The notes beneath the pieces were generated by a model. It was not told where the DNA came from. It saw only the letters and a program-made list of their open reading frames with translations, and ran no database searches. Below are positions 9,343 through 63,797 of a stretch of 64,000 nt of DNA, piece by piece (position 1 is the stretch's first letter; each line of letters begins with the position of its first letter). The position numbers and the translations under genes were made by a program. The stretch is from Hydrogenispora sp. (GTDB lineage: Bacteria > Bacillota > UBA4882 > UBA10575): contig DUQQ01000082.1 in the NCBI GenBank assembly GCA_012837705.1, positions 62,001 to 126,000 on the forward strand, written 5' to 3'.

Positions 9343-9981
9343 TTACTGTGGTTTCACCATCACCAAAGCGCGGAGAATTTGCCAGTACATCTGCATCCGC
9401 GCAGCAAAACCCCGCGCGAGTCCCAGCTTCTCCTCTTTTAGCACTTGGCTCAGGTTCGGAAGATCGACCCAGACCACCTTATGCCGGTTAATCTGGGCCG
9501 AACGATTCATGATCACTTCAAATCCGTATCTACTATGGGCCAGTTCGGGGAGGGAGACCAACAACTCCCGCCGGATTGCCCGTTGCCCATTGAGTTTTGG
9601 CACCATCTGTTGCGAAAGATCGGTCGCCAATCGTCCCGCGCTAAAATAACCAATCGTCATCATCGCCTGCTGTGTAAAAATGGGAGCAAGCAGATCCTTC
9701 ACGTGCTTAGCGGTCAACCCGATCAGGTCGGCGTCGAGGAGGAGAATTACTTCGGCCGTGGTCGCCGCGACACCGGCCATTACCGCCGCCCCTTTACCTT
9801 TATTCTCTGGTATTTCAATCACCGCGGCACCCATTCTCCTGGCCACAGCAGCAGTTTGGTCAGTCGATCCGTCACTAACCACAATCACCTGGGATAGATC
9901 GGGGCATTCCCGCAGCGGTGCCAAGACCCGACCAATATTTTTCTCCTCGTTATAGGCGGGAATAACGGCGGCAATCTTCAT
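9343..9981 (-). CDS. Family 2 glycosyltransferase
   Basis: A 212-residue GT-A fold enzyme without membrane anchor. Residues MKIAAVIPAYNEEKNIG open the nucleotide-sugar site, SDGSTDQT follows, and LLLDADL gives the DxD-type metal site. It resembles the short dolichyl-phosphate-mannose-synthase or glucosyl-3-phosphoglycerate-synthase-like GT2 proteins, but donor and acceptor cannot be deduced. A GTG at 9990 could also start it; I prefer ATG 9981. It sits between proS and polC, 60 nt before polC, an unusual guest in an otherwise conserved cluster. A role in polyprenyl-linked glycan or cell-envelope synthesis is plausible from the neighbourhood only. Confidence 0.85.
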   Translation of the reverse strand: MKIAAVIPAYNEEKNIGRVLAPLRECPDLSQVIVVSDGSTDQTAAVARRMGAAVIEIPENKGKGAAVMAGVAATTAEVILLLDADLIGLTAKHVKDLLAPIFTQQAMMTIGYFSAGRLATDLSQQMVPKLNGQRAIRRELLVSLPELAHSRYGFEVIMNRSAQINRHKVVWVDLPNLSQVLKEEKLGLARGFAARMQMYWQILRALVMVKPQ

Positions 9982-10029
9982 CAAAATCACCTTGGCTTTC
10001 TTTGAACCAATTCGATTAAGGTTCGTAGG

Positions 10030-11742
10030 CTAAACGCCAGCCGGATTATGCTCTTTTATGTAAGCTAAGACCCGGTTAGTAACTTCCGTAAGGGGCCAAC
10101 GGAAATCTTCGCCGGTGTTCCTGACCTTCACTTCCACCTCGCCCTGGGCTAAACTCTTCGGACCAACCGTTAGGCGGAGAGGAATCCCGATTAAATCAGC
10201 GTCTTTAAATTTAACCCCGGGCCGTTCATCGCGGTCATCAAAGAGCACTTCAACACCGGCCGCGGTAAGTTCCTGGTAGATCTGCTCCGCCGCAGCTTTT
10301 TGCTCCGCCCCCAAAGCAAGAATGGTCACTTGGAAAGGAGCGATCGGCAGCGGCCATTTGATCCCGTCTTCATCGTTATTTTGCTCAATCGCCGCTGCTA
10401 TAATGCGGCTGATCCCGATCCCATAGCAACCCATGATAAAGGGCTTTTCCACGCCGTCCTCATCCCGGAAGGTCGCGTTCAGCGCACAACTGTACTTCGT
10501 CCCTAGTTTAAAGATATGTCCAACTTCGACCCCTCTGGTCTCCTTAAGCGGCTGCCCACAATGGACACAGGGATCGCCCGCTTTCGCCAGTCGCAGATCG
10601 GCAAAGGTATCCACGGCAAAATCCCGCTCCAGGTTAACATGGCAGAGATGGAAGTCTTTTTCGTTTGCGCCGCAAACTGCGTTCTTCATGGTCTTGATCC
10701 TGTGGTCGGCCAGAATTTTCACGCCTTTTTCTTTTAAACCGACCGGTCCAACGTAACCAACCGGTAACCCAAGTTTTTCTGCGATCTCTTCTGGTGGGGC
10801 CAACCAGTATGGTTCATTCAGCAAGTTCCCCAGTTTAATCTCATTAAGATCATCATCCCCCCGGACCAGGACCGCAATGAACTCCGTATTGGTTTTGTAA
10901 AAGAGGGTTTTGATCAGTTTTTCGGGAGCCACCTTAAGGAAAGTCGTAACCTCCGCCACCGTCGCTTGGTTGGGCGTGGAGACCTTTTCCATGGCCTGTA
11001 ACGGTTCGTTCACCGTTTCCGGTAAAGCAGCGGTAGCCTTTTCATCATTAGCCGCATAGTTGCAGGCTTCACAGTATAGGATCACCGCTTCACCCGCCGG
11101 TGCCAGCACCATAAACTCGTGACTAACATCGCCACCAATCGCACCGGAATCAGCTTCGACCGCCCGAAACTGCAAACCACAACGGGTAAAGATCCGTTCG
11201 TACGCCTGGTACATCGCCTCGTAGCTTTCGTTTAATCCTTCCTCATCCCGGTCGAAAGAGTAGAGATCTTTCATGATAAACTCACGGGCCCGCATCACCC
11301 CAAAACGCGGCCGGATCTCATCCCGGTACTTATTTTGGATCTGGTAGATACGCAGGGGTAGTTCCCGGTAGGACCGGACCTCGTTCTTCAGTAAAGTGGT
11401 GATCATCTCTTCGTGGGTGGGACCTAAACAGAAATCCCGTCCATGGCGGTCTTTGAGACGATACATCTCATCGCCATAGACATCCCACCTTCCCGACTGA
11501 TGCCAAATCTCGGCCGGTTGTACAATCGGGAGCAAAACTTGCATCCCCCCCGCCCGGTCCATCTCTTCTTCGACGATCCGGGTGATCTTTTTCAGTACCC
11601 GGTGGGCTAAGGGTAAAAAACTATAGATCCCAGCTGCGGCCTTACGGATCATCCCCGCACGCAACATCAGTTTGTGGCTATCCAGCTCCGCTTCAGAGGG
11701 AACCTCCCGCAGGGTTGGAATGTAATACTGAGTGTATCTCAT
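10030..11742 (-). CDS. proS: Prolyl-tRNA synthetase (bacterial type)
   Basis: Charges tRNA(Pro) with proline. The 570-residue enzyme has class II motif 1 near residues 40-75, motif 2 in the RDEIRPRFGVMRAREF region, and motif 3 in GCYGIGISRI. A long insertion (roughly 230-390) between motifs 2 and 3 is the INS editing domain that clears Ala-tRNA(Pro), so this is the bacterial ProS type rather than the archaeal/eukaryal one. The C-terminal anticodon-binding domain is complete. It overlaps the stop of ispG by ATGA (4 nt), indicating coupled translation, and follows the common ispG-proS-polC order. Confidence 0.97.
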   Translation of the reverse strand: MRYTQYYIPTLREVPSEAELDSHKLMLRAGMIRKAAAGIYSFLPLAHRVLKKITRIVEEEMDRAGGMQVLLPIVQPAEIWHQSGRWDVYGDEMYRLKDRHGRDFCLGPTHEEMITTLLKNEVRSYRELPLRIYQIQNKYRDEIRPRFGVMRAREFIMKDLYSFDRDEEGLNESYEAMYQAYERIFTRCGLQFRAVEADSGAIGGDVSHEFMVLAPAGEAVILYCEACNYAANDEKATAALPETVNEPLQAMEKVSTPNQATVAEVTTFLKVAPEKLIKTLFYKTNTEFIAVLVRGDDDLNEIKLGNLLNEPYWLAPPEEIAEKLGLPVGYVGPVGLKEKGVKILADHRIKTMKNAVCGANEKDFHLCHVNLERDFAVDTFADLRLAKAGDPCVHCGQPLKETRGVEVGHIFKLGTKYSCALNATFRDEDGVEKPFIMGCYGIGISRIIAAAIEQNNDEDGIKWPLPIAPFQVTILALGAEQKAAAEQIYQELTAAGVEVLFDDRDERPGVKFKDADLIGIPLRLTVGPKSLAQGEVEVKVRNTGEDFRWPLTEVTNRVLAYIKEHNPAGV

Positions 11743-12875
11743 GATTTACCTCCTTCTTCGTCCTCAAGTTCCTCAAGCCTGAACTTGGCCCGATTTAGCT
11801 TTAGATTAACCCCATACTTTTCCCGGATCAGCTGCGCCAGTTCCTCCGCAAAAGCCGTGAGGAGTCGGGGTTGTTTTTCCTTGCGAAGGATTTCGCCGTT
11901 ACGGAAGATCAATCCTGCTTCTTTTCCGCCGGCAATCCCCAGATCCGCCCGGGAGGCTTCGCCAGGACCATTTACCACACAACCCATCACCGCTAAATGT
12001 AAGGGATAAGGCAGATCCTGAACCAATTCCTCTACTCCTTCGACCAGTTCCTCCAGGCCAATCTGACACCGTCCGCAGGTCGGACACGCCACCACCACCG
12101 GACCACGCTCCCGTATATGGAGGGCTTTTAAGATCTCAAAGGCCGCCGTCACTTCATGCCGGGGATCACCGGTCAACGAGACCCGGATCGTATCACCGAT
12201 TCCTTGGTTCAGTAAGATCCCCAGCCCGACCGCAGATTTAATTGTCCCCCGCCACCGGATCCCCGCCTCGGTAACCCCAAGATGGAGGGGAAAATCCCAA
12301 CGTGCGGCAAAGGCCTCATTAATCTTAATGGTCTCGACAACATCTGATGATTTCAAAGAAACCACAATCTGGTCGTATCCATCCGCTGTGACCAGCTCCA
12401 ACTGGTCCTCCACACTCGCCAGCATCGCCTGGACCACATCCCCCTCATAGCGGGCCAAATAATCCCGGTGTAGCGAACCGGCATTGGCCCCAACCCGCAG
12501 AGCCACACCATTGGCTTTGGCGGCGCGGACCACTGCTTTTACCCGATCGGGACCGCCAATATTCCCCGGATTCAAACGAATCTTGGCCACCCCGGCGTCA
12601 ATCGCGGCCAAAGCCAGTCGGTAATCAAAATGGATATCGGCCACGACCGGAAGCTTCGCGTGCTTCACGATCTCCTTGAGCTTAGCAGCAGCCTCCTGGT
12701 CAGGAACGGCAACCCGAATCAGTTCACAACCGGCCGCGGCCAACGCTTCGATCTGCGCAAGGGTCGCCGCCACCGCCCGCGTATCGGTGTTGGTCATCGA
12801 TTGGACGACAATCGGCGCGCCTCCGCCGATCACCAGGTTCCCGACCTGAACCGGTCGGGTCTTCTTTCTTGGCAT
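11739..12875 (-). CDS. ispG: 4-hydroxy-3-methylbut-2-en-1-yl diphosphate synthase (flavodoxin/ferredoxin)
   Basis: The penultimate enzyme of the non-mevalonate (MEP) isoprenoid pathway; a [4Fe-4S] protein reducing MEcPP to HMBPP. The TIM-barrel N-terminal part begins VQVGNLVIGGGAPIVVQSMTNT. The C-terminal cluster-binding region has CPTCGRC near residue 263 and GCVVNGPGE near 303, giving the cysteines and glutamate that hold the cluster. Length (about 378) fits the short bacterial form. GTG 12878 and ATG 12875 are both possible starts. With dxr in the same run it shows the cell uses the MEP pathway, feeding uppS. Confidence 0.97.
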   Translation of the reverse strand: MPRKKTRPVQVGNLVIGGGAPIVVQSMTNTDTRAVAATLAQIEALAAAGCELIRVAVPDQEAAAKLKEIVKHAKLPVVADIHFDYRLALAAIDAGVAKIRLNPGNIGGPDRVKAVVRAAKANGVALRVGANAGSLHRDYLARYEGDVVQAMLASVEDQLELVTADGYDQIVVSLKSSDVVETIKINEAFAARWDFPLHLGVTEAGIRWRGTIKSAVGLGILLNQGIGDTIRVSLTGDPRHEVTAAFEILKALHIRERGPVVVACPTCGRCQIGLEELVEGVEELVQDLPYPLHLAVMGCVVNGPGEASRADLGIAGGKEAGLIFRNGEILRKEKQPRLLTAFAEELAQLIREKYGVNLKLNRAKFRLEELEDEEGGKS

Positions 12876-13016
12876 CACTTATATCCCCATTCCTTCTTTA
12901 AAAAAGCTCAGTCTGTCATTCTCCCGGCACTAGTATCGCCGCTGATGAGACCTGCTGCGGTCCGCCTTCAGATCTTGTCGCCCACCTGGTTTTGATCCCA
13001 TCCTACAGGATCGTTA

Positions 13017-13103
13017 GTCGACGCACCCAGCTTTAGTTTAATTCCCTTGGTAAATCAATGTAACCGGCGTGGACGACTTGGTGGTTACCAGCTGGGTGCC
13101 GAC
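13017..13103. repeat. Nested inverted repeat in the gap upstream of ispG
   Basis: GTCGACGCACCCAGCT (13017-13032) is nearly matched in reverse by AGCTGGGTGCCGAC (13090-13103); inside it TAACC and GGTTA form a second pairing. The whole could fold as one long hairpin in the ispG leader or at the 3' end of the zinc-ribbon gene. No T-run follows, so it is not a standard terminator. The rest of the 12876-13127 gap shows nothing recognisable. Confidence 0.45.
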
Positions 13104-13127
13104 TTAAACAAAGATAAAACTGGCCGA

Positions 13128-13565
13128 CTAAAGCTTGTCCGTCGCTGGGCTGTGCTGAACACAAAGGTCGCAAAAACCACGGTTCTTTCTAACTTGGGCC
13201 GGGGCTTCTTTCCCACACCGCAGACAGAAAACCCCCGCAGTTTCGGCACAGACCCGACACAACCCAAATTTGGGTATCGACGCCGGATCGGGTCGGCCAC
13301 AGGCTGGGCACAGGCAATTCCGGCAGTAGCCCTTTCCCGCTTTCACTTCCGCCGGAGCAAAACGGCCGCAACCAAGGCAGACCCAGTTCCGCTCTTTTTT
13401 TCTGATCATCTCTTGAACACAGAATTCACAAAGATTATGCGCTTTCAAGATTCGGCTCTGTTGAACAGTATTCCCGCAACGGGCACAATACCGTTTTCCG
13501 CGCCGCCCCTTCGAGCGGCCTTCTTTATTCGGATCCAACCACGGACTTTTGCGCTTTCGGGCCAC
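13128..13565 (-). CDS. Hypothetical protein with four tandem zinc ribbons
   Basis: Not a family I recognise. The 145-residue protein has a basic N-terminus (MARKRKSPW, then RRGKR) and eight CxxC knuckles at C27/30, C46/49, C63/66, C81/84, C86/89, C103/106, C114/117 and C132/135. They pair naturally into four four-cysteine zinc ribbons linked by short basic segments. There is no signal peptide or membrane helix, so it is cytosolic and probably binds nucleic acid or ribosomes. The GTG start at 13565 follows AGGGAGG at 8 nt. It is inserted between rseP and ispG, positions usually adjacent, and is probably co-transcribed with them. Confidence 0.85.
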   Translation of the reverse strand: MARKRKSPWLDPNKEGRSKGRRGKRYCARCGNTVQQSRILKAHNLCEFCVQEMIRKKERNWVCLGCGRFAPAEVKAGKGYCRNCLCPACGRPDPASIPKFGLCRVCAETAGVFCLRCGKEAPAQVRKNRGFCDLCVQHSPATDKL

Positions 13566-13593
13566 AATTTTAACCTCCCTTAAGTGGAGAGTT

Positions 13594-14676
13594 TTAACTC
13601 TTTAGCATCAGACGCCGGAGCACACTGGTGAGATCAGCGCTGACCACTGTAAAATAAAAGGCGATAATCAAGACCAGCCCAATCCCTTGGGCGACGATTT
13701 TATGTTCCGGTTTAAACTCGCTGCCTCTTAACCATTCCAGCAGAAAAATGACGATCCAACCGCCATCCAGCAAGGGTAGGGGGATCGGCAGCAAGTTGAA
13801 GATCCCAAGAAAGAGATTGAAGCTAGCCACCATGGTGAAGAACAGATATAATCCGGTCTTTAATGCCTGGTCGATCATCCCCACCATCCCGATGGGCCCG
13901 ACAAATTGCGGCCGCATCCGGCCGGTCAGCATCTGAACGATACTAACCGGAATGGCCACGATCTGCCGGCCGGTTAAAGTCACACCGTACTGAATGGCCT
14001 TGGGTAAGGGCAGTCTTTCCACGACATAGGCAGGGTGAATACCGATGCGGGCCACCCCCAAGGTAGCATCATACACCGGAGTAAGCTCCCGGACAAAATA
14101 CCGCCCTGCTCGTTTAAACTCCATCCTTAACCTTTGGTTCGCTGCCTGGTGAACCAGACCGGAAAGCTGAGTCCAATGGGTAATTGGCTGTCCATTGATG
14201 GCAACTATCTCATCCCCAGCCGCCAGTCCGGCTTCGTACGACGGCGAATTCGGCTCCACAAAACCAATGACCGCGCGGTCACTTTGAAGCTGGACAGGTA
14301 ACCCCAAGACGGCCGCGATGAAAATGAAGGTCAAAAGGGCGCAAAGGAGATTGTTCAAGGGGCCACTGAGCATCATCAAGACCTTCTTTCCACAGGAAAG
14401 CTCATTGAAGAGTCTTTCACCGGGCTGCGGCACGGCTGCTTCCCCTTCAAGCATGATCTCCATCCCCGCTACCTTCACAAAGCCCCCAAAGGGGATCAGA
14501 CGTAACGAATAAACAACTCCCTTCCTTTTGGTGCGGACGACAGCTGGTCCAATGCCAATAGAAAACTCATGGACCGTTACCCCGAACAGACGGGCACAAA
14601 AAAAGTGGCCTCCTTCGTGAATCAGGACTATAAACCCGAAAAGAAGGATAAATACCGGTATCGTCGCCCACGACAA
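13594..14676 (-). CDS. rseP: RIP zinc metalloprotease RseP (site-2 protease)
   Basis: An intramembrane protease that cleaves membrane-bound anti-sigma factors or signal-peptide remnants. The active site VLIHEGGHFF (HExxH) lies in the first helix, a PDZ domain occupies the middle (around GLAAGDEIVAINGQPI), and the second zinc-site motif LPLLDGGWIV is near the C-terminus. A longer reading frame back to 14775 would overlap dxr and has no Shine-Dalgarno; TTG at 14676, after GGGGGCAAGG, gives about 360 residues beginning just before the first helix and is chosen here. It follows dxr by 47 nt, in the conserved cdsA-dxr-rseP order. Confidence 0.94.
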   Translation of the reverse strand: MSWATIPVFILLFGFIVLIHEGGHFFCARLFGVTVHEFSIGIGPAVVRTKRKGVVYSLRLIPFGGFVKVAGMEIMLEGEAAVPQPGERLFNELSCGKKVLMMLSGPLNNLLCALLTFIFIAAVLGLPVQLQSDRAVIGFVEPNSPSYEAGLAAGDEIVAINGQPITHWTQLSGLVHQAANQRLRMEFKRAGRYFVRELTPVYDATLGVARIGIHPAYVVERLPLPKAIQYGVTLTGRQIVAIPVSIVQMLTGRMRPQFVGPIGMVGMIDQALKTGLYLFFTMVASFNLFLGIFNLLPIPLPLLDGGWIVIFLLEWLRGSEFKPEHKIVAQGIGLVLIIAFYFTVVSADLTSVLRRLMLKS

Positions 14677-14723
14677 GCCAACCTTGCCCCCTTTATTTAG
14701 TAGTCGGCTACGACGAAAAACAT

Positions 14724-15902
14724 TTACTCGATTGATTCCTCGGATATAAGTTGCCGGGTTATGCGGCGGGCCCAAGCATCCACCGCCAATATGGTGTCCA
14801 GATCAAGGCGCTGGTTACTCCCCTTCTCATATGCGTCCATGACACGCTCGATCAGGCGAGGAATCGCTAAAAATCCAATCCGGCCGGCGAGAAAGGCGTA
14901 CACCGCTTCTTCATTGGCGGCATTTAAGACCGTCGGAAGGGCACCACCCGTTTTACCAGCAGCGTAAGCCAACTCCAAGCAGGGAAAACGCTTGAAATCC
15001 GGAGGGTAAAACTGAAGATCCGAAAGCTGATAAAGATCAATCCGAGAAAAGGGGTTTTCTCTCCGCTCCGGGAAAGTCAAAGCATATTGGATCGGTAGGC
15101 GCATATCGGCTGGTCCCAGTTGGGCCAGGAGACTACCGTCCACCAGCTCGATAAGGGAGTGGATAATACTTTGCGGATGAATTACCACTTTAATCCGGTC
15201 ATAAGGCAGACCGAATAACCAGTGGGCTTCGATCACTTCCAACCCTTTATTCATCAATGTTGCCGAATCTATGGTGATCTTCCCGCCCATCCGCCATGTG
15301 GGATGGGCAAGGGCCGCTTCGGGAGTAACGGCCGCCATTTCTTCTACGGTCTGGCGGAAAAAGGGCCCGCCCGAGGCGGTGAGGTGTATTTGTTTTAAAT
15401 CCGGTTCCGCGATGGCCTGAAGGCATTGGAAAATCGCGCTATGTTCACTGTCCACCGGAATCAACCGCGCTGAACTTCCCTTCTTGAGCTCGGCCATGAT
15501 TAATTCCCCGGCTGCGACCAGACTTTCTTTATTCGCTAGGGCCACTTTCTTCCCGGCTTGGAGAGCGGCTAGGGTCGGTCGGATTCCCGCCGCGCCCACC
15601 ACTGCGGAGACCACCACGTCCACCGCCGGATCAGTCACCAACTCAAGCAGGCCGTCGGGACCCGACAAAAGCGTCCCTTCCCAACCGGTCGTCGCCGCTA
15701 ATACTCCCTGGTACTGCTGATTGTTGGTCACCACCGCTTTCACGGGGCGGTATTTTCCAATCTGTTTGGCCAGCTGGTCCCCCTGGTTATGGGCCGAAAG
15801 TCCATAGATCCGAAAGTCAGCTGCTAAAACCCGGGTCACCACGTCAAGGGTTTGTTGCCCAATCGACCCTGTTGCACCCAGAATTACCAAGTTTTTTTTC
15901 AT
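14724..15902 (-). CDS. dxr: 1-deoxy-D-xylulose-5-phosphate reductoisomerase
   Basis: The first committed enzyme of the MEP isoprenoid pathway, NADPH-dependent. The Rossmann start VILGATGSIGQQTLDVV is present (residues 5-21), as are ALANKESLVAAG, IPVDSEHSAIFQCL (metal site) and the TASGGPFF loop. Length of 392 is typical. It lies between a YtvI-like permease and rseP in the cdsA-dxr-rseP-ispG cluster, so the window holds two of the pathway's steps together with uppS, the main consumer of the product. Confidence 0.97.
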   Translation of the reverse strand: MKKNLVILGATGSIGQQTLDVVTRVLAADFRIYGLSAHNQGDQLAKQIGKYRPVKAVVTNNQQYQGVLAATTGWEGTLLSGPDGLLELVTDPAVDVVVSAVVGAAGIRPTLAALQAGKKVALANKESLVAAGELIMAELKKGSSARLIPVDSEHSAIFQCLQAIAEPDLKQIHLTASGGPFFRQTVEEMAAVTPEAALAHPTWRMGGKITIDSATLMNKGLEVIEAHWLFGLPYDRIKVVIHPQSIIHSLIELVDGSLLAQLGPADMRLPIQYALTFPERRENPFSRIDLYQLSDLQFYPPDFKRFPCLELAYAAGKTGGALPTVLNAANEEAVYAFLAGRIGFLAIPRLIERVMDAYEKGSNQRLDLDTILAVDAWARRITRQLISEESIE

Positions 15903-42420: not shown

Positions 42421-43059
42421 TTAGAATAACTTAGCCACCCAATAAATGAACATGGGAGAAACAAAACCCTCAATCAATCCGGAAACAGTCAGGAGGACCA
42501 TCGCCAGACCACTGATCCCTAGCCCTTGAAGTAAATCGGCAGAAACAGGCCGGTTCACCCGGCCAAACCGGCTCTTCAGTAAAGCGCCAGCTAGATCGAT
42601 ATTGGCGACACCAGCAATCATCAAGGCGGGGATGATAAGGACATAATGGGGAAAGACCGAAGTTACCGTAAAGAGAAAGCCTTTACCCGCCAGTTGTTGG
42701 AGGATGAAGCCAATCGTAAACCCAAGAATGTACCCTTTAGCAAAGAGTAAGAACAGGATCAAAGGAACGCCGATGACGCTGATCCCCAACAAGATAAAGA
42801 AAAAAACCGTTTTTAAATGATTAAAGATCGCATCACCCGCCAAAACCGCATCGGTCACCGGCTCGGTCTCCTGCTTCATTCCTTGGAAAAAAAACTGGAT
42901 ATACTGCAGCAACTCGGTTTTCTGTCCATACTCTAAATTCTGGGCGGAGAGGGTACCGAAGACAACACCCATGGTAAACAACAGACCAACTAAGATAAAG
43001 AGAAAAAGCCGCTCTTCAATGTATAAACCAATCATCCTTCGCCACTTCCGCAGAAACAA
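42421..43059 (-). CDS. spoIIM: Stage II sporulation protein M
   Basis: A membrane protein that, with SpoIID and SpoIIP, thins septal peptidoglycan during engulfment. The 212-residue protein has about five helices and the SpoIIM domain with the RLFLFILVGLLFTMGVVFG start and the FPHYVLIIPALMIAG helix. A GTG at 43068 has no spacing from its ribosome-binding site; TTG 43059 fits AGGAGGTG better. Its place beside xerD and nudF matches Bacillus. It is good evidence for an endospore former, though SpoIIM-like proteins occur elsewhere. Confidence 0.9.
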   Translation of the reverse strand: MFLRKWRRMIGLYIEERLFLFILVGLLFTMGVVFGTLSAQNLEYGQKTELLQYIQFFFQGMKQETEPVTDAVLAGDAIFNHLKTVFFFILLGISVIGVPLILFLLFAKGYILGFTIGFILQQLAGKGFLFTVTSVFPHYVLIIPALMIAGVANIDLAGALLKSRFGRVNRPVSADLLQGLGISGLAMVLLTVSGLIEGFVSPMFIYWVAKLF

Positions 43060-43121
43060 CGAAACCACCTCCTTGTCCCGGTCACTAAATAATATGACGA
43101 AAAAGGAGATGGTATGCAGGT

Positions 43122-51504: not shown

Positions 51505-53076
51505 TTAACCACTAATCTGGTCAAACTTCTCCACCATAATGGTCCGTAGTACTTTTCGCACCAATAAAGTCAGAAGAAACAGGAGCAAACCGGAGTAAAA
51601 AAGGATCCCGTACACGCCCGCTCCCGGGAAACAAACGGCGGACAGGAACGGGATTACCGCCAGTAGCGGCCGGTAGGCTAAAGAAAAAAGCACATTCAGG
51701 TTATTCTTAATTGCTGCCGCCGGATTAGTCCAGTGCAGATAAGGCCGGTATATATTGATCACCAAATCGGTCATGGCCAAAAAAATCGTCAGCATCATCA
51801 CAAAAAAAAGACCCGGTAGTAAAGCAAGTTTCTCCAGGGGAAAGTAGAGGAAAAAAACTACCGTTACCAACAGCGAAAAGGCCAGATTAACCAGGATGGT
51901 CGTGCCAATCCGCGCCCGCAGATTTGTCCAGGTCGCAACCGGTAAAACCCGCGTCTCCCAAAAGGCCTTCCCTTCCCGGGAGATGGCGGTCGCTGACAGA
52001 TTCGTCAGTAATGCCGGAGTAGAAGCCAGCCCAAGCCAGAAAAGTAACAATCGCTTCTGTTCGTTTGGGAGAAGTAGTGTTTCCGCCGCTAAGTCCCCGG
52101 AAAGAATCCCTATTAAAAAAACCAAACCGGGCAGGATCAAGCTAAGGATGGTATTCATCAAAAAAACCGGTTGTTTCATGATGAGCAAAAGATGGCGGCG
52201 GAGCAGTTGCCAGGATTTTTTTCTTAGTCGATAATCGAAAGTTACGGGCCGGCGGGCGGACCTTGTTCCAGAAAAGAGCAACGCGGACCAGTACAACTTC
52301 CGTACGGTACGTTTTAAACCCCAGTAACAAAGAAAACTGAGCGCCCCGTATTTAAGCAGGCCAAGCAGCGAACCGTTGGCAACCTGAGCCGACCAACCGG
52401 CCGGGGGATAAAGCCTAGTTAAACGCTCAGTCCAAGCCACAAGCCGCGCCGCGCCTTCATTCGTTAATAGAAGTTGGGCCGCCAACACCAAACCCAACAG
52501 AGCAAAGGCAAAAAAGAGGGAAAGCAAGCTTTTTCGGTTCCGGTTCGCCCTTCGGTTTGACAAGCCTAAAACAGCCAAGCTCGAAAGGAAAAGCGGCGGG
52601 AAAGGGGTTACCACGATCAGGAGCAGACTGAAAAGGAAAGACCAGACTGAGAGTCCCGCATCTAGTCCCACCAGGAGCGCAACCGGAAACAAGAAGACAA
52701 AATTAATTCCGGTCAGATACAGCCAGACCACAACCAGCTTTGCCAGGACCAAATCGTCTGTCGGAATGGGTAAGGGGGTTAAAAACTGAAAATCCCTACT
52801 GTGCAAATATAAAGAGAAGAGGAGGGGGATGGCCGTAAAGGTCAGCAGCAAATAAGCCATCATGGTCATATAGGCGACCCCGAGTTCGGGTCGTCCCCAT
52901 CCCCAAAAACGCTGATAAGCTTCGATCGACATATTTATGAAGGGTATACCGAGCAAAAGCAGAGTAAAGACGAGCAGGCCCCTCCCCCGCTTCGTTGCCC
53001 CGTATCCCATTCCGGTCCGGTATTTGCTGAAAAATTCCAATAGTTCGAGGCGGACCAGCGCCCTGAATTTACGCAT
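51505..53076 (-). CDS. ABC-2-type exporter permease
   Basis: A 523-residue membrane protein with about twelve hydrophobic segments, the permease partner of the ATPase gene that it overlaps by 8 nt. It resembles the large putative ABC exporters of Firmicutes (EcsB/YthQ-like) more than short ABC-2 permeases. The N-terminal FRALVRLELLEFFSKYRTGMG is cytosolic. Substrate is unknown. GGAG lies 10 nt before ATG 53076, inside the preceding gene. Confidence 0.85.
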   Translation of the reverse strand: MRKFRALVRLELLEFFSKYRTGMGYGATKRGRGLLVFTLLLLGIPFINMSIEAYQRFWGWGRPELGVAYMTMMAYLLLTFTAIPLLFSLYLHSRDFQFLTPLPIPTDDLVLAKLVVVWLYLTGINFVFLFPVALLVGLDAGLSVWSFLFSLLLIVVTPFPPLFLSSLAVLGLSNRRANRNRKSLLSLFFAFALLGLVLAAQLLLTNEGAARLVAWTERLTRLYPPAGWSAQVANGSLLGLLKYGALSFLCYWGLKRTVRKLYWSALLFSGTRSARRPVTFDYRLRKKSWQLLRRHLLLIMKQPVFLMNTILSLILPGLVFLIGILSGDLAAETLLLPNEQKRLLLFWLGLASTPALLTNLSATAISREGKAFWETRVLPVATWTNLRARIGTTILVNLAFSLLVTVVFFLYFPLEKLALLPGLFFVMMLTIFLAMTDLVINIYRPYLHWTNPAAAIKNNLNVLFSLAYRPLLAVIPFLSAVCFPGAGVYGILFYSGLLLFLLTLLVRKVLRTIMVEKFDQISG

Positions 53077-55593: not shown

Positions 55594-57648
55594 ATGCAAT
55601 ATTTAACTTCTACCCGTTTTTATGGTGTCCTGCTGTTGCTTGTAATATTTACAATCATTACATTAATTACCACCGCCTCCGAAAACCCAGCTTCCACAGT
55701 GGAAGAGCGGTATCAGCAAGCACTTGACCTCTACTATCAGGGTGAATTTTACCAAAGTCTTGACCTAATGGCAACGATCATCCGGGACAATCCGGTAAAC
55801 GATCGGATCCGTTTTGATTTAACCTATCTCCTCCGCGAGTCCGGTCGGTTTCCTGAAGCCATAAACCACCTTACCCACCTGGTGAACACCAACCCTAACC
55901 AAGAAGCATACCGGAACGCGTTGCTCGCCACCTCTTATCTGGCCGGTAACTATTACCAGGTATTAGCGATCAAAAGTCCGAAAGATTCGGTCGAAGCCTC
56001 CTTCTGGAAAGGGTTGGCCGCTTACGACCTTGGCGTTTATGTCCTGGCCAAAGACCACTTGGCACGTGTGGTAGAGCTTTCTTCCTTTCATCCCTTGGCT
56101 TATTACTACTTAGGCCTGATCAACCTGGCCGAGAAAGATTTTGCCCAAGCCAAAACCAACCTAACACGCGCCTTAACCCAAGATCCGAATCTTTTTGTCG
56201 CCCGCTATGACTTGGCCCGCGCCTATTTGGGATTAGGTGACTATAAAGCAGCTTATAACCGCTTAAAGCAAGCGGAACGAGCTTCGCCGAATAATCCCCA
56301 AATCCAAATGGACTTACAGAACCTGTTGGCCGCCCATCCTCAGCTGCTGGTCGAAGAGGAAAAGGCAGCGGCAACCCACCGCGAAACTGCGGCAGCCCCC
56401 CGTGCCGTACCCTTAGAGGGTGATCCAACCGGCATAACAACCGTCCGTATCGGCCTGGCCGAACAGGTGGAGACCCTCTGGGCGAAAACTGGCGGTGCTT
56501 TTAAGCTGACCACCGCTTCCGGCAAGGTAGCGCTCTCCGGTAATCCCCAGACCATTTTAAAGTTTACCTTTAACTCGAAGGGCCGGATTCGAGTATATGA
56601 TGAAACGAAAAAGCTCCTCCTCGACACCTCGGAAGCGGTTCTCCTTTCCTATTCCGACCCGCAGGCCACTACCCTCCTTTTCGAGATGGAGTACGGGCGT
56701 GGCTACTTCTGGGCCGGCCAGGCAACCCGGGCCTACCGCGGCGCGATTCAACTCCTTCCCTTTCCCGCAGGGATGACCATCGTCAACCATGTCACCATGG
56801 AGGAGTATCTATACGCCGTCGTTCCTTCCGAGATGCCTTCTTCCTGGCCCGCAGCAGCCCTACAGGCCCAAGCGATCGCGGCCCGGACTTATGCCTTCGC
56901 CAACCTAGGGAGTTACAACCGACGCGGTTTTGACCTGATGGGTTCTGTTGCTTCCCAAGCTTACAACGGGGTTACGAGTGAAAACAGCGCCGTTCGGCGA
57001 GCGGTAGACGCCACTCGCGGGCAGATCTTGACTTATAACGACAAACCGATCTCGGCTTTTTACTCCGCCAACTCCGGTGGATATTCCGCCGTACCGCCGG
57101 CCACCTGGAACTTTAACCCGCCTTATTTACAGGCCGTACCGGATAAACTGGTGGACGCCCATGACGGACTTCCCGCGCCGGCTGCTTTGGCCGACTGGGT
57201 CGCGAAACGGATCCCTTCCTATTCGTCCAACCCAAAATACAGCGCGCGCAGCGCCTACCGGTGGCAGGTGGTTGTGCCCCGCATTGAAATCGAACGTCGC
57301 CTGCAAAGCAGGGCCAACCTTGGCCAGATCACCGCGATCGTCACCGTCGGCCGGGCGTCATGCGGGCGGGTCGACCATGTGTTAGTGCAAGGAACGGAAG
57401 GCCAATTACGGATCAGTGGCGATTCGATCCGCTCCAGTTTAGGCGGCTTGCGGAGCAACCTTTTTGTGGTCGCGCCGAAAATGGGGTCAGACGGCCTTCC
57501 CGAGTACTTTATCTTTACCGGTGCCGGTTTCGGCCACGGGGTCGGCATGGACCAAAGCGGTGCTGCCGGCATGGCCGCCGATGGATACTCATCCCAAGCC
57601 ATCCTTGAACATTATTATCCCGGCACAACCATCACCACGCTCTACTAA
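55594..57648 (+). CDS. TPR protein with SpoIID/LytB peptidoglycan-lytic domain
   Basis: A 684-residue, membrane-anchored or secreted protein. One N-terminal hydrophobic segment (residues 7-26) is followed by about six tetratricopeptide-like repeats (40-255; for example PLAYYYLGLINLAEKDFAQA) and then a SpoIID/LytB domain (about 280-680). The core EEYLYAVVPSEMPSSWP near 400-416, with the glutamate proposed as the lytic transglycosylase residue, and AIAARTYAFANL are intact, as is GFGHGVGMDQSGA near the end. SpoIID usually lacks TPRs and pairs with SpoIIM in engulfment; the fusion suggests a scaffolded or vegetative wall-cleaving role. AAAGGA precedes the ATG. Confidence 0.88.
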   Translation: MQYLTSTRFYGVLLLLVIFTIITLITTASENPASTVEERYQQALDLYYQGEFYQSLDLMATIIRDNPVNDRIRFDLTYLLRESGRFPEAINHLTHLVNTNPNQEAYRNALLATSYLAGNYYQVLAIKSPKDSVEASFWKGLAAYDLGVYVLAKDHLARVVELSSFHPLAYYYLGLINLAEKDFAQAKTNLTRALTQDPNLFVARYDLARAYLGLGDYKAAYNRLKQAERASPNNPQIQMDLQNLLAAHPQLLVEEEKAAATHRETAAAPRAVPLEGDPTGITTVRIGLAEQVETLWAKTGGAFKLTTASGKVALSGNPQTILKFTFNSKGRIRVYDETKKLLLDTSEAVLLSYSDPQATTLLFEMEYGRGYFWAGQATRAYRGAIQLLPFPAGMTIVNHVTMEEYLYAVVPSEMPSSWPAAALQAQAIAARTYAFANLGSYNRRGFDLMGSVASQAYNGVTSENSAVRRAVDATRGQILTYNDKPISAFYSANSGGYSAVPPATWNFNPPYLQAVPDKLVDAHDGLPAPAALADWVAKRIPSYSSNPKYSARSAYRWQVVVPRIEIERRLQSRANLGQITAIVTVGRASCGRVDHVLVQGTEGQLRISGDSIRSSLGGLRSNLFVVAPKMGSDGLPEYFIFTGAGFGHGVGMDQSGAAGMAADGYSSQAILEHYYPGTTITTLY

Positions 57649-57851: not shown

Positions 57852-60449
57852 CTACTGGGCCGGTAAACCGAGGTGAACTCCGAACGATACCGTCCGTTCT
57901 CCGTGGGGGTAAAAACGGCATTCCGATCCGATTGATAGACAAAAACGGTTGGTTTGACCCAAATAAAACCTTAAGCCGGTATCAAAACCGAAGTATAGGC
58001 CAAGGTCCAGGTAAGTACTGGCCGGATCGGCATGCTTATAGACACCGTATAACCCCCCTCCCAGGGCAACATACCAACCAAGCAACTCGTTAGGAGGAAA
58101 GATATCTCCTTCCCAAGCCAACTCCCCGCCGGCTTCCGCCCGCCAGATCTCCGGCGACCCTCCCAACTGCAGTTTTAAACCGCTAAAGGAAGCAAAGGGG
58201 TGTCCCGTTTCCGAACCTATTTTCAGCATGCAATAGGGCTCTTCGACCGCGGAATCTAAAGTAATAGCTAGTCCATACATCGCCCGATGCTGTTTTGAGA
58301 GGCGTTTATACAGCATGTTACATTGTCGATACCAGTAGTTGCGTTCGGAAACATTTACCTCTGCCCCGCGCTGGAGCGCTTTATCCAGATAGGCCAAGGC
58401 GGTCTTCCGGTCTCCCTTCTGGTCGTAAACCCGACCGAAAGCGTAATATATCCATCCATCCCCCGTTGGGTCTTCCTTTAATGCCTGCGCTTGTTGTAAA
58501 AGAGCTAAAGCTTCATCGTTCCGTTGGGTACTGAGCACCGTTAAACAGTACCCTTTCACCGCATAGCCAATGGCGTATTCCGGGAGCAGTTCAATACTGG
58601 CTTCTGCTAACACCAGATAATAGCTGGTATTACCGCCCCGCGAACGAAACTGGTTAAAAAGCTGTTCGTAGCTTTCGGCCAAGCGGTGACGGCCATCGGC
58701 AGCCCACTCCGGCGTCAATCCCGCCTCTTCCGCTTTACGCAGCGCTTTCCCCAGCGCGTCAACGGCCGGACCATACCGCCCATTTCGCTGGTACGCCCAG
58801 CCTAAAAGGTATTCCGTCCAACCCGACTCGGCCGGTTCTTTCTCCAGAGCAAAGGCTTGTTCCAAGACTTCAAGGGCCCGTCGAGGCGTCTTTCCCGTCA
58901 TCAGATAGGAGTACCCCAAGGCCTCATAAGCATAAGCGTACTCCGGCACGAACGCAATAGCCCCTTCCAGAAAGTCTATGGCTTCCTCATACTCCCCATT
59001 CAATAGAAAGCTTTCGATCTTAATTTCATAACACTGCTGTAAAAGACGGAGGCAATCAGCTTCCCACTCCGGGGGGGAGAACATTAATGACTGGCGGGAA
59101 CTGGTCACCGCTTGTTCTAAGGCTTCCTGTGCTTTATCTTTAGCGCCCGTTTCCCAATAGGCCCAACCTAGTAGGTAATAGGTCCAGCCATCCCCATACG
59201 GCCGGTCGGCCATCGACAACGCGGCCGAAAGGGAATGTACAGCTTCTTCAGCCCGCACCGGTACGCTTTTCAAAAGGGAATAACCCCGTGCCGTATAGGC
59301 AAACGGAGGATTAAAACTGTTAATTGCTTGCTGACTAAGGTCTAACGCCCGGTTGTAATCCTGCGCTGCCCAGCACTCTTCGATCTCCTCCCGATACAGC
59401 TCCAGGCACATCCGAACCGCCCGGTCAAACCAATCCTCCGGTGACCACGGGGTACCCGCGGCTTGGTAGCGTAGAGCAGCCTTCTCCAAAGCCAAGCGGG
59501 CTTCGCGCCGCCGTCCGCGATTGGCATATATCCGGCCCAACAAATAATGGGCAAAACCGTCACCCCATGGTTCCTCGGCGATCGCCACCGCCCTTTCTAA
59601 AGCAATAAGGGCTTGTTCTTCGTTGGTCGGCTGGATCCGCAGATACGTATAGCCTAATGCAGCATGAGCGAAGGCAAAAGTAGGAAATTTCGCCAGCGCT
59701 TCCTGGCATAAAGAATGGGCATTCCGGTAATTCCCACTCATAAGGGCCTGCTCGATCCGGTCGCGATAGGTTTGTTCCTCGCGCCGCCCAACAGTCCCCT
59801 CGAGGCTGTCTCCACCAACGGGAGGAGAGAAATCCCCCGGACTTTCCCCGGGGAAACCCGGAAGGACCGCTCCGGGTTCGGAAAGGAACCCGCCACCAAC
59901 TGGCACCAGGGTCTCAAGCAGTTGCATAACTCCCTCATCCTTCGGCAGCTCCACCGAAGCAGCGGCAACAATCATCCCGGTTGAGGTTGTGATCACACGG
60001 GCGTTCACCCGTACAGTTGTCGAGAGCTGGGAAAGGGTTCCAGAGACCACCGCCGAAACCCCAAGGATCTTCCCTAATTCCTGCGCCGAAGACGAATCGA
60101 CAAAACCAGCAGCGCTTAATTTTAGCTCATCAAGGACCTTATTCAGTAACTGCCGTTCGATGACCTCAAAACGCCGCGTTAAAAACAACCGCGTGGTCAA
60201 TTCTTCGGCGACAAACCGCCCCAAACCGGTCACATTCCCCCCCAGATCGGGGAAGTCAAGCACGGCAATGCGAATTTTCTCCGGTGCCCCAGCAGAACTG
60301 GTGTTCTCTTCCATGAGTTCAACGATCCGGGCTGCCAGCACATCCAAACTGTGGTCCAACTCGGTTTGGGCTTGACACGGAAGGTTATAAAACAGTGAAA
60401 AAATGATCATCACCGTAATAATGAGGAAACATCGGCTTACTCTCTTCAT
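57852..60449 (-). CDS. Exported CsgG/FlgO-like protein with four 122-residue super-repeats and a barrel-like end
   Basis: An 865-residue secreted protein. Residues 1-28 form a signal peptide (cleavage near CQA-QT). Residues about 58-175 are a CsgG/FlgO-type domain: IRIAVLDFPDLGGN, the RFEVIERQLLNKVLDEL helix, and LGKILGVSAVVSGTLSQL. Then four copies of a roughly 122-residue TPR-rich repeat (about 230-345, 350-468, 473-592, 597-715); the marker GDGWxYYLLG recurs with glycines at 298, 421, 543 and 665. Residues 725-865 alternate aromatic, glycine and charged residues like an outer-membrane beta-barrel. It is the last gene of the four-gene operon. The FlgO label is by domain likeness, not proof. 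Confidence 0.82.
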   Translation of the reverse strand: MKRVSRCFLIITVMIIFSLFYNLPCQAQTELDHSLDVLAARIVELMEENTSSAGAPEKIRIAVLDFPDLGGNVTGLGRFVAEELTTRLFLTRRFEVIERQLLNKVLDELKLSAAGFVDSSSAQELGKILGVSAVVSGTLSQLSTTVRVNARVITTSTGMIVAAASVELPKDEGVMQLLETLVPVGGGFLSEPGAVLPGFPGESPGDFSPPVGGDSLEGTVGRREEQTYRDRIEQALMSGNYRNAHSLCQEALAKFPTFAFAHAALGYTYLRIQPTNEEQALIALERAVAIAEEPWGDGFAHYLLGRIYANRGRRREARLALEKAALRYQAAGTPWSPEDWFDRAVRMCLELYREEIEECWAAQDYNRALDLSQQAINSFNPPFAYTARGYSLLKSVPVRAEEAVHSLSAALSMADRPYGDGWTYYLLGWAYWETGAKDKAQEALEQAVTSSRQSLMFSPPEWEADCLRLLQQCYEIKIESFLLNGEYEEAIDFLEGAIAFVPEYAYAYEALGYSYLMTGKTPRRALEVLEQAFALEKEPAESGWTEYLLGWAYQRNGRYGPAVDALGKALRKAEEAGLTPEWAADGRHRLAESYEQLFNQFRSRGGNTSYYLVLAEASIELLPEYAIGYAVKGYCLTVLSTQRNDEALALLQQAQALKEDPTGDGWIYYAFGRVYDQKGDRKTALAYLDKALQRGAEVNVSERNYWYRQCNMLYKRLSKQHRAMYGLAITLDSAVEEPYCMLKIGSETGHPFASFSGLKLQLGGSPEIWRAEAGGELAWEGDIFPPNELLGWYVALGGGLYGVYKHADPASTYLDLGLYFGFDTGLRFYLGQTNRFCLSIGSECRFYPHGERTVSFGVHLGLPAQ

Positions 60450-60484
60450 CTAAAGCATCCTTTACTTTTGATCAAATTCATCTG

Positions 60485-61591
60485 TTAGTTAAGTCGTTTC
60501 ACAAGTTCGGCAGCGAGTTTTGGCATCTCGTCCCGCCAATTGGCAGCCGTGGTGCCCCGCGCGAAAGTGTAAGTGAAAGGTTTAACTTCTTTGCTTACGC
60601 GGCCCGAGTCAATCTGGAGTCTTTTTGCGGACACTTGAATACGGACCCGGTTGCGGACCTCAAAGGAATGGATTGCGCCGATGATCACTTCGTCCACACC
60701 AAGGATCCGGCCGAGATCCAAGGCTAAATTCTCATCCAAGTCTCCGCCTAAAGCGGCGGCCTGTTCGGTAAGGATCGCTTGTGTCCTGGTGTAATCCAGC
60801 ATCACATATTTACCGTCGGCGGCCGCTTGCATTTGGCGTTGCAACTCGCGGACTAATGAGTCCTCAACCCCGGCGGTTGTTGTATGATTAAGAAAGAACA
60901 AGACGGTTCTGAGCGGCAAACCCTGATTTACTTGGGCTTTTGCGCGGGCATAATGGTCAGCAATCTCGGACAGCTCTGGCGCTAATAAATAAGCCCGTTC
61001 GTACTCCTGGAAAGCTTCCGGCCAGCGGTTAACCGTTTCATAGCTCAAACCCCGCCGGTAGTGCATCCAGGCTAATTCCTGGGATAACTGGTTCAGTTTT
61101 TGGCGTGCTTCGGTCGAGGCCGGGATGTATTGCAGTGCTTGACGGTAATAGGCTTCGGCCGCTTCCAGTTTTTTTTCCGCCCAGGCCTCATCGCCCAAGC
61201 GTATAAACATGGTGCCCGCCTTACCCTTTGCGTCCGCAAGTTTCGCCGCCACATCCTTATATTTCGGGTTAAGCTCCCATACTTTGGTATAGGCCTCAAC
61301 CGCTCCCACCCAATCGCCAGCCGACGCCAGACTCTCCGCTTGCCGGTAGAGTTTTTCGGCTTTCCCGTTGATCACCGCGGAGCGAATCAGGCAAACTGCC
61401 CCGACCACAACCGCTGCGCCCACACCAACCTTGATCGCCATTTTCCCGGAGTCCGACTGTGTACCCTTCGCAGTTACCGGTAAGGTGTTGAACACTAACA
61501 AAAAGACCAGCGCTAGACCGGTTATTTTCATCACTCGTCTCATCTTCGCCGTTGGTTCACTTTTCTGAACCAACTCCCCCCTTCCCACCAT
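60485..61591 (-). CDS. Exported TPR protein with CsgG/FlgO-like C-terminal domain
   Basis: A protein of up to 368 residues. The hydrophobic stretch ITGLALVFLLVFNTLPVTA is a signal peptide or anchor; a second hydrophobic helix follows (VGVGAAVVVGAVCLIRSAVI). TPR-like helices run from about 75 to 215. The C-terminal part (about 230-365) is CsgG/FlgO-like: VMLDYTRTQAILTEQAA, LGRILGVDEVIIGAIHSFEV and RVRIQVSAKRLQIDSGRV. ATG 61591 has little ribosome-binding site; starts around residues 17-21 are possible. It lies 3 nt after the LPP20-like gene and 35 nt before the long TPR gene. No lipobox is seen. Confidence 0.8.
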   Translation of the reverse strand: MVGRGELVQKSEPTAKMRRVMKITGLALVFLLVFNTLPVTAKGTQSDSGKMAIKVGVGAAVVVGAVCLIRSAVINGKAEKLYRQAESLASAGDWVGAVEAYTKVWELNPKYKDVAAKLADAKGKAGTMFIRLGDEAWAEKKLEAAEAYYRQALQYIPASTEARQKLNQLSQELAWMHYRRGLSYETVNRWPEAFQEYERAYLLAPELSEIADHYARAKAQVNQGLPLRTVLFFLNHTTTAGVEDSLVRELQRQMQAAADGKYVMLDYTRTQAILTEQAAALGGDLDENLALDLGRILGVDEVIIGAIHSFEVRNRVRIQVSAKRLQIDSGRVSKEVKPFTYTFARGTTAANWRDEMPKLAAELVKRLN

Positions 61592-61594
61592 ACG

Positions 61595-62473
61595 TTAATC
61601 GATGACTAAAGCCACGGCCCCGTTCCGGATGACCTCTGGATTCAGCCTTCGAAATTCCTTCGCCGCTTCCACCCCGAGAACCAGATCGGTCTGCTCTTCT
61701 CCTCCCATGGGGACTGGGCTATCCGCCGTCAAGACCAATGGGTTAGAACCCAACCGCGGTAAGTTACGGGCTAAATCAATCGAACGGGCGTAGGCCACAA
61801 TGGTGGTAAAGCCCGGTCGCGCCATGTTGACCATCGTGGACGCATAGAGGAGGTTCCCTTCATGGTCAAACACCTGTGGGTAGAGGGCGGGTTTTATCCC
61901 TAAATTGCGGGCATCAATGATTACTCCGGTGTAAGATGTGGTATTCCCGGTCGCAGGACGATCGGGAAACACCGTTGGAGAAGGGCCCATCCGCTCCGTA
62001 ATTTCCGGGCGGTTCAGCAAGGATGTGAGCCCGGCTTGTCCTCCCAAGGGTAATTCAATAGTAAGCTCTATCATTCCATCCCATTGCTGATTGACCTTGA
62101 TGATCCGTGCTCCTTGGACAAAACCTTCAACCACAACTCTGATCTCGTCACTTTGCATCACGTAATTTCGAACGTAGGTCTCACTATTAACCCGGACACC
62201 GTTCAATACTTCCGCCGCGTTGCGGTAGGCATCGGCTTTTGCCGCTCCGCGGGCCATCAACCGGGCCTGTGGTCCGGAAGCCCCCTTTGGTGGAGCGCCA
62301 TAGCCAACCACATAGATCATTCCGTTGCCCCAGTCAATCTGGCCGGAACCAACCTCTTCAATCATTCCATAACTCTGTCCGCGTACCATAGCGGTGCTGG
62401 CCAGAAAGAGCAGGCAAAACAAGGCTAACAAGGTGCTTTTTACTTTACGCGTTGCCACCACCCCCTGTTTCAA
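61595..62473 (-). CDS. Exported LPP20/FlgP-family-like protein
   Basis: A 292-residue secreted protein. Residues about 12-33 (LLALFCLLFLASTAMVRG) form a signal peptide without a lipobox cysteine. The next part (about 45-150) follows the LPP20 pattern: GYGAPPKGASGPQARLMARG, then AAKADAYRNAAEVLNGVRV and SETYVRNYVMQSDEIRVVVEGFV, ending with the beta-strand TIELPLGGQAGL. The C-terminal half (about 180-290) is of unknown fold. TTG 62473 starts 1 nt after the preceding gene ends. In Vibrio and Campylobacter LPP20 proteins (FlgP) form outer-membrane flagellar discs; membership here is by pattern only. Confidence 0.75.
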   Translation of the reverse strand: MKQGVVATRKVKSTLLALFCLLFLASTAMVRGQSYGMIEEVGSGQIDWGNGMIYVVGYGAPPKGASGPQARLMARGAAKADAYRNAAEVLNGVRVNSETYVRNYVMQSDEIRVVVEGFVQGARIIKVNQQWDGMIELTIELPLGGQAGLTSLLNRPEITERMGPSPTVFPDRPATGNTTSYTGVIIDARNLGIKPALYPQVFDHEGNLLYASTMVNMARPGFTTIVAYARSIDLARNLPRLGSNPLVLTADSPVPMGGEEQTDLVLGVEAAKEFRRLNPEVIRNGAVALVID

Positions 62474-62474
62474 T

Positions 62475-63539
62475 TTACGGCATCCCAGCCGCGTGAATCA
62501 GTAGTTTAATCAGGTGCTGCGAAACACCGGTAATCTCAATCATCATCCCCCGCCCTCCGGCCAGTTGGTCGGCAAGCTGTGGTGCGGTAAGCGTGGTTTC
62601 AACCGTTAGCACCGCTTTACGCCCGATATATTCCCGTAATTGAACATTGTCCACCATCGGAGTCTCCTGTATTTGTTGGCGAAGCCGCACAAGCTGTTGA
62701 TAAGAGACGTTCTCAACGACAACCGTATGGCTCCGTGGTTCAGTCAAGATCTTTGCTAAGTCGGTAAGAAGGACAGGAAGCAGCTGCTCTCCGGCTTGAC
62801 GCAAGGCTTTTTCCGCCGCCGCAACCGGGGTCAGATCAACAGCGGTCTGTTGCCAGTCTTGAGCCGCCAGAACCTCACCGGTTTCGGCTTTAATCACTTT
62901 CATTTCTATGGTCACCCGGCATGAAATTAATCCGTAGTAATTACCAAGTTTTTCGCTATAGACTCTCCCTTGGACCAAAAGATCATGTGGCATGCCGACC
63001 ACCTGCTGCCCCCTGTCCGAGACCACCTGGTATCCGGCTTGCTTAAGCCCGTCGACCAATTGAGCCTCGATCCTACCGGTGGCCAGATTATGGGTCACCG
63101 CCACCACAGAAACCCGTATACGGGGGTCACCGGCCAGCTTCAAGTTTAAACGAAGCTCCTTCAGATCTTCGATCATCGTTCCCCGTTTAATGCTAACCGT
63201 AAGCAAAACTTTACAGATGTTTTGATCCACCCAAAGATCATCGATCTCATAACTTGATATGTAACCGGCCGAGCGTAGACGGATCGAATCCCGAATCAAC
63301 TCATAATTTTCGACCTGGGTTTCGCTATAAACAAGAACTCCCACCGCCTGCTCCACCGCTTGTTGTAAACCGTTCGCCACCGCGAGCTCACGGGCCTTAG
63401 CGATCTGGCCATCGATCATGAAGGCTTCGCCCACTACCTGTAGCACAATGGTCTCTTCTGCCGACTCTTTCTCCGCAACCACCGGAAAAATGACCAGGAA
63501 GAGCAAAAAATAGATCCAGATTATGCGTAAACACTTCAT
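62475..63539 (-). CDS. Exported FlgT-like protein
   Basis: A 354-residue secreted protein with signal peptide (residues 4-22, IIWIYFLLFLVIFPVVA). Residues about 30-115 match the FlgT N-terminal domain pattern: VVGEAFMIDGQIAKARELAV, NGLQQAVEQAVGVLVYSET, and SYEIDDLW. Residues about 135-255 look like the TolB-like middle domain of FlgT (VSVVAVTHNL, GYQVVSDRGQQVVG, DLLVQGRVYS). The last 80 residues form a small beta-rich domain. Vibrio FlgT has a comparable length and order and forms the H ring of the flagellum. ATG 63539 is 7 nt after GGGGAGG. It is the first gene of the operon; no promoter is clear. Confidence 0.75.
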   Translation of the reverse strand: MKCLRIIWIYFLLFLVIFPVVAEKESAEETIVLQVVGEAFMIDGQIAKARELAVANGLQQAVEQAVGVLVYSETQVENYELIRDSIRLRSAGYISSYEIDDLWVDQNICKVLLTVSIKRGTMIEDLKELRLNLKLAGDPRIRVSVVAVTHNLATGRIEAQLVDGLKQAGYQVVSDRGQQVVGMPHDLLVQGRVYSEKLGNYYGLISCRVTIEMKVIKAETGEVLAAQDWQQTAVDLTPVAAAEKALRQAGEQLLPVLLTDLAKILTEPRSHTVVVENVSYQQLVRLRQQIQETPMVDNVQLREYIGRKAVLTVETTLTAPQLADQLAGGRGMMIEITGVSQHLIKLLIHAAGMP

Positions 63540-63797
63540 GGACTAACCTCCCCGGGTGGAATCGCCGAAAACTATTTCTGCTTAATTAATTCCATTCCAC
63601 GGAGATTTTTTCCTTTATTTTATTCACACATATTACCCTTTTTCCCTTTTCGTTACCTTGGAAAACCCGCTCGCCGCTGGCTACCCGTCGCCCGTCACGC
63701 GTGAACATGATTGCCTTTGGCGGCATTTACCCCAGGCCGGAGCGCTCACCGCTATGGGATTTCCTTGGCATTGGCATCGGCATCGCATCCATGAATG
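63540..63797. other. Gap upstream of the FlgT-like operon
   Basis: No gene is visible. GTGGAAT (63556-63562) and ATTCCAC (63594-63600) form a 7-bp inverted repeat just before the operon's ribosome-binding site. A short run of hexamers, TTGGCA twice then TCGGCA and TCGCAT (63765-63788), follows farther right. The A/T-rich stretch 63600-63650 is the likeliest place for the promoter, but no good -35/-10 pair fits. Confidence 0.4.

Follow-up and report, generated by a model that had tools for sequence, protein, structure and literature searches.

The window analysed here (64,000 nucleotides of contig DUQQ01000082.1 of Hydrogenispora sp., from a 2.4 Mb genome that is 97 % complete) carries a minus-strand operon of four genes whose exported products resemble the flagellar ring proteins FlgT, FlgP and FlgO. 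We give slightly better than even odds (about 0.52) to the operon encoding an outer-membrane-anchored periplasmic ring or scaffold of H-ring-type parts, which would serve diderm Bacillota as an envelope module of general use, independent of the flagellum. In transcription order, the genes encode P4, a FlgT-like protein (62475..63539, 354 amino acids); P3, a FlgP-like protein with a TTG start (61595..62473, 292 amino acids); P2, with tetratricopeptide repeats (TPRs) and a CsgG/FlgO-like domain (60485..61591, 368 amino acids); and P1 (57852..60449, 865 amino acids), with a FlgO domain, a long TPR array and a probable C-terminal outer-membrane barrel. The preliminary description, made from the DNA sequence alone, had read these as four minus-strand genes with signal peptides or anchors and the domain patterns FlgT-N/TolB, LPP20, TPR plus CsgG/FlgO, and CsgG/FlgO plus TPR plus barrel. 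Open reading frame coordinates confirm the gaps of 1, 3 and 35 nucleotides it gave (P4/P3, P3/P2 and P2/P1), a hydrophobic N-terminal export segment begins each protein, and Pfam, homologues and structure models agree with the domain assignments.

By profile comparison, P3 is homologous to FlgP. Among solved PDB chains its profile matched 9hmf_C most strongly (1.5e-13), which its length and sequence lead us to identify as Campylobacter jejuni FlgP (its record reads 'lipoprotein, putative'), and it also matched FlgP 8z5n_2 (8.7e-6), 9yfg, 9yec and 9yds; 10 of the 15 aligned homologues contained LPP20 at an E-value of 0.1 or lower (best 7e-6). P3 consists of an SHS2 domain and a C-terminal domain (residues 181-292, 61598..61933, minus strand as for all operon features) that resembles part of Treponema pallidum Tp0624 (5jir, chain residues 129-263, 8.3e-10). 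According to an in situ structure of the C. jejuni motor published in 2025 (PMC12222027), ring-forming members of the SHS2 family, such as FlgP and FlgT, carry a hairpin inserted after the SHS2 helix and before the second strand. In a joint alignment, P3, P4 and nearly all of their relatives cross this region of FlgP without internal gaps (P3 residues 93-121, 62111..62197, gapless against C. jejuni FlgP by profile as well; P4 residues 68-99, 63243..63338). The alignment thus indicates that the hairpin insert is present in P3 and P4, an insert that does not by itself establish rings.

P4 is predicted, with moderate confidence, to have a FlgT-like fold. A structure model computed from four sequences (predicted local distance difference test, pLDDT, 72; predicted template modelling score, pTM, 0.39) was compared with 350,542 PDB chains using Foldseek. 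The top match was the LPHT ring chain 8z5n_0 (6.4e-11), which we read as FlgT because the next match is FlgT itself (3w1e, 1.1e-10); CsgG followed the FlgT matches. In this model an SHS2 (FlgT_N/LPP20) domain and a TolB/CsgG-like middle are followed by a C-terminal domain with beta-alpha-beta-beta-alpha-beta secondary structure in place of FlgT_C, to which P4 has no match. FlgT_N was detected at an E-value of 0.1 or lower in 10 of the 16 aligned homologues (best 1.3e-7). The monomer model builds the hairpin region partly as a low-confidence helix. One P4 homologue (genome G056) had appeared to lie beside an flhF-like gene; this neighbour clustered with the flhF-like gene of the window's genome but is SRP54/ffh, beside ylxM, and the lead was dropped.

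The barrel apart, the domain content of P1 and P2 is well established at the sequence level. Both CsgG (2e-13) and FlgO (3e-13) scored above the Pfam cut-offs in P1, together with many TPRs; the FlgO domain spans residues 44-171 (59937..60320; PF17680, 50.2 bits against a cut-off of 22.6), and residues 33-181 match the solved FlgO 9yfg_Hb (E 0.0025). Of the proteins that the preliminary description named for comparison, FlgT stood at the top for P4, FlgP was matched by P3 and FlgO by P1, and CsgG was among the matches of P4. At the other end of P1, a model of residues 715-865 contains eight antiparallel strands (pLDDT 65, pTM 0.57), whose nearest solved structure is NspA (1p4t, 5.5e-5, template modelling (TM) score 0.67), followed by OmpX, the OprF N-domain, OmpA and PagL. 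The C-terminus (residues 724-865, 57855..58280) is thus modelled, with moderate confidence, as a closed eight-strand barrel of the OmpA/NspA type, and P1 is probably a FlgO-TPR-barrel protein, an architecture of which we found no earlier description. Its best reading is that of a lineage-specific anchor. A lipoprotein reading of P1, suggested by an LPC lipobox, was discarded as the cysteine is not conserved across all homologues. P2 matches TPR_2 (2.5e-10) and CsgG (4.5e-5, above the cut-off); in an alignment drawn from 13 loci, the signal sequence is followed by another hydrophobic segment (residues 50-70, 61382..61444) in the window's family, but not in the homologue of G024 (L099).

The host is a flagellated diderm Bacillota, as the preliminary description had half anticipated in suggesting a diderm lineage and a search of the remaining genome. 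Omp85 and LpxC are both encoded, and the cell therefore has a lipopolysaccharide outer membrane; FlhA, FlgI and rod proteins were found too, FlhA and FlgI on contigs other than the window's. PolC and SpoIIM, noted earlier, are likewise present (SpoIIM at 42421-43068). At locus L096 (G000:C69:3001-23000, positions 9434-15171), mreB is followed by a six-gene run that we read as flgF-flgG-flgA-flgH-flgI-flgJ, with FlgI and two rod proteins assigned by Pfam and the others by position and inspection of their sequences. The same set has been reported for Negativicutes and Halanaerobiales (PMC5007114). With flgH and flgI in this run, the host flagellum appears to be equipped with P and L rings already. 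The genome also encodes, outside the operon, two more proteins with CsgG and FlgT_C domains (L058:9336-10364 and L057:1527-2474, on contigs C42 and C78), one of them about 5 kb from chemotaxis-like genes.

We then followed the operon among 29 genomes of the class. P3 was found in 17 and P4 in 14; PF17680 FlgO, almost confined to P1 in the class, occurred in nine genomes, in each of them as P1. The order P4-P3-P2-P1 is intact in most family members examined, as the proposed survey of relatives was meant to reveal, and its recurrence at protein identities to the window of about 44-84 % is more than chance. Variants exist. The arrangement in G009, G014 and G015 is P0-P4-P3-P2; P0 is of the CsgG type, and its C-terminus looks rich in strands. 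G011 and G012 combine P0 with all of P4, P3, P2 and P1, and one P0 protein also matches FlgT_C. In flagellated members of the window's genus the operon is largely lost, with P3 alone retained, beside the same neighbours, in G004 and G007; neither P3 nor P4 is found in flagellated G005 and G010.

Beyond the class, P3 matched in 36 of the 399 genomes of a phylum-wide sample. Genes of the P4-like, P3-like and CsgG/FlgO-like kinds lie together in pairs or clusters in several other families (L140, L141, L143, L144, L145, L146, L147, L150, L154, L155 and L159), including a plain P4-P3-FlgO trio at L150. FlhA was present in 22 of the 26 P3-matched genomes outside the class. The absence of FlhA had to be abandoned as a sole sign of flagellum loss, as G002, G025 and G204 lack it yet have rod proteins; rod proteins (PF00460) served as a second marker, and only genomes without both were counted as aflagellate (G269, G169, G246 and the class members G017 and G018). 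The first three nevertheless each contain a P3 match. G169 has P3 at L156 and P4-CsgG at L159, and the hairpin region is intact in its proteins and in those of G269, both genomes being near-complete. Related modules thus exist in aflagellate genomes. In the P3 tree, the copies from aflagellate genomes branch at two separate points among flagellated relatives from their own family (supports there 0.84-0.97), so that the genes probably outlasted the flagellum. Across 81 genomes, Omp85 accompanied P3 in 18/18 cases vs 22/63 of the others (Fisher p 2.5e-7, uncorrected for shared ancestry), and no link to FlhA was detectable (17/18 vs 51/63, p 0.16, likewise uncorrected). G269, a single 2.23 Mb contig that is 99 % complete, holds two diverged FlgT-like/FlgP-like/CsgG sets, one ordered CsgG-P4-P3 (L144) and the other with its P4, CsgG and P3 genes distributed across 10 kb (L145).

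These distributions bear directly on the two options left by the preliminary description: an envelope assembly of a new kind, or a motor's outer rings. The flagellum-free sets and the loss of most of the genes in flagellated congeners favour the former. The latter, in which the operon would provide extra outer rings of the H-ring or basal-disk type dedicated to the host motor while aflagellate relatives reuse related proteins for something else, is weakened because related gene sets persist without a flagellum, and we regard it as rather unlikely. In its support, the nearest solved relatives of P3, of the P1 FlgO domain and of the P4 fold are all flagellar ring proteins, and a FlgO-domain protein shares one solved complex (9yfg) with a FlgP-like lipoprotein. 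However, no conserved sigma-28-like promoter was found upstream, and no flagellar gene was recognised adjoining the operon, as already noted for the window, in any class relative examined, or beside the loci in other families.

Several points weigh against a flagellum-independent module and, in part, for the motor. Every class member with P4 has FlgI; the class members without FlhA, FlgI and rod proteins (G017 and G018) also lack P3 and P4; and no match to PF17680 FlgO turned up when CsgG proteins from the aflagellate genomes were scanned. The TPR-barrel protein P1 is missing from the aflagellate modules, which may therefore differ in function. The presence tests ignore shared ancestry, with most positives coming from one family, and the FlhA test has little power since FlhA is nearly universal in the sample. 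At the level of the proteins, the window copies of both P3 (LPP20, E 1.3e-3) and P4 (FlgT_N, E 0.016) fall below the Pfam cut-offs, only four sequences went into the P4 model (pLDDT 72), and this model superposes badly on FlgT as a whole (TM 0.29 and 0.26), meaning that the likeness lies in the individual domains rather than in the shape of the complete protein. Ring formation, moreover, is argued from homology.

If the flagellum-independent envelope module is correct, P3 and P4 would polymerise through their SHS2 hairpins, as the homologous FlgP hairpin suggests, and form rings against the outer membrane on its periplasmic side. The eight-stranded barrel of P1 would tie such a ring into the membrane, with its FlgO domain and long TPR arm projecting into the periplasm, and P2 would be a second TPR-CsgG subunit. 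We infer from this arrangement a collar at the outer membrane that may brace or connect envelope structures, the flagellum being one possible client where present.

The CsgG-type domains also raise the possibility that P1 and P2 form an outer-membrane conduit for protein or polysaccharide, as in CsgG-like or Pel-like export. CsgG does score above the Pfam cut-off, PelC and CsgG are among the fold matches of P4, and the TPR-plus-barrel layout of P1 recalls, to our eye, PelB. Yet the matches stop halfway along the CsgG profile (positions 4-106 in P1 and 33-105 in P2, of 210), short of the full domain with its membrane hairpins, an eight-strand barrel is too narrow for a conduit, and the conserved neighbours identified beside the operon are a SpoIID protein, a major facilitator superfamily transporter and an ATP-binding cassette (ABC) transporter, and no others; we thus consider export improbable. 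Least probable of all are LpoB-like outer-membrane activators of peptidoglycan synthesis with TPR scaffolds: several CsgG-type members also match LpoB in Pfam, as a secondary hit, but CsgG outscores it in each single protein listed, and we know of no LpoB activators with FlgP/FlgT-type SHS2 partners.

Motor accessory rings are usually regarded as adaptations of the flagellum in particular groups of proteobacteria. The same trio, in variable architecture, linked to the outer membrane in diderm Bacillota and kept without flagella opens the origin of such rings to testing. We tentatively raise, as a possible though doubtful scenario, that diderm Bacillota hold an ancient, flagellum-independent outer-membrane ring complex of the FlgT/FlgP/FlgO type, from which flagella would have recruited the Vibrio H-ring and the Campylobacter basal disk. 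The operon hints at an outer-membrane assembly not yet characterised, in a branch relevant to the monoderm/diderm transition; our literature search found nothing on a FlgT/FlgP/FlgO-like module in Negativicutes or other diderm Bacillota.

Around the operon, a SpoIID/LytB-domain protein with N-terminal TPRs (55594-57648, plus strand) is convergent with it and is kept beside it in most family members. Further away, a 523-amino-acid protein (51505-53076, minus strand) without a Pfam or NCBIfam match is encoded beside an ABC ATPase gene and is presumably a permease. Upstream of P4, the non-coding block AAAGGAAAAAATCTCC...TGGAATGGAATTAA (63590-63660) is similar in several relatives and contains no recognised sigma-28 site. 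A candidate sigma-28 promoter at 63585 was rejected: it matches at 8/12 positions and is not conserved, and 10/12 matches are common across the window.

Compared with known systems, P3 has its strongest solved relative in the FlgP of the C. jejuni basal disk (9hmf), and differs from it in having a second domain and no evident lipobox. This second domain is shared with the N-terminal part of Tp0624, a protein that ends in an OmpA-like domain (PMC5104382) and for which no SHS2 domain is reported, unlike P3. The N-terminal half of P4 matches the NCBIfam model of Leptospira LipL46 (6.5e-5), although its 21.8 of 400 bits are far under the model cut-off. The predicted barrel of P1 shares with OmpA/NspA-type barrels its eight antiparallel strands. 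The CsgG curli channel and PelB-PelC have in common with the operon a CsgG/TolB-type domain and the pairing of TPRs with an outer-membrane barrel; here, in contrast, the CsgG match of P1 and P2 is half-length, the barrel is small, and no substrate or synthase genes were recognised alongside. The closest parallel in composition is the Vibrio H-ring, since all three of its families meet in one operon: P4 has FlgT as its best fold match, P1 carries a FlgO domain, and P3 is a FlgP-type SHS2 protein by profile, with a hairpin region that aligns without gaps. The differences are that P1 bears TPRs and a predicted barrel instead of a lipoprotein anchor, the C-terminal domain of P4 is unlike FlgT_C, and P3 has the extra Tp0624-like domain. 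Because the operon does not lie beside flagellar genes in the window or the relatives examined, and related genes also occur in cells without a flagellum (the sets of G269 and G169, the P3 match of G246), we describe it as H-ring-like in composition and do not file it as a member of the H-ring.

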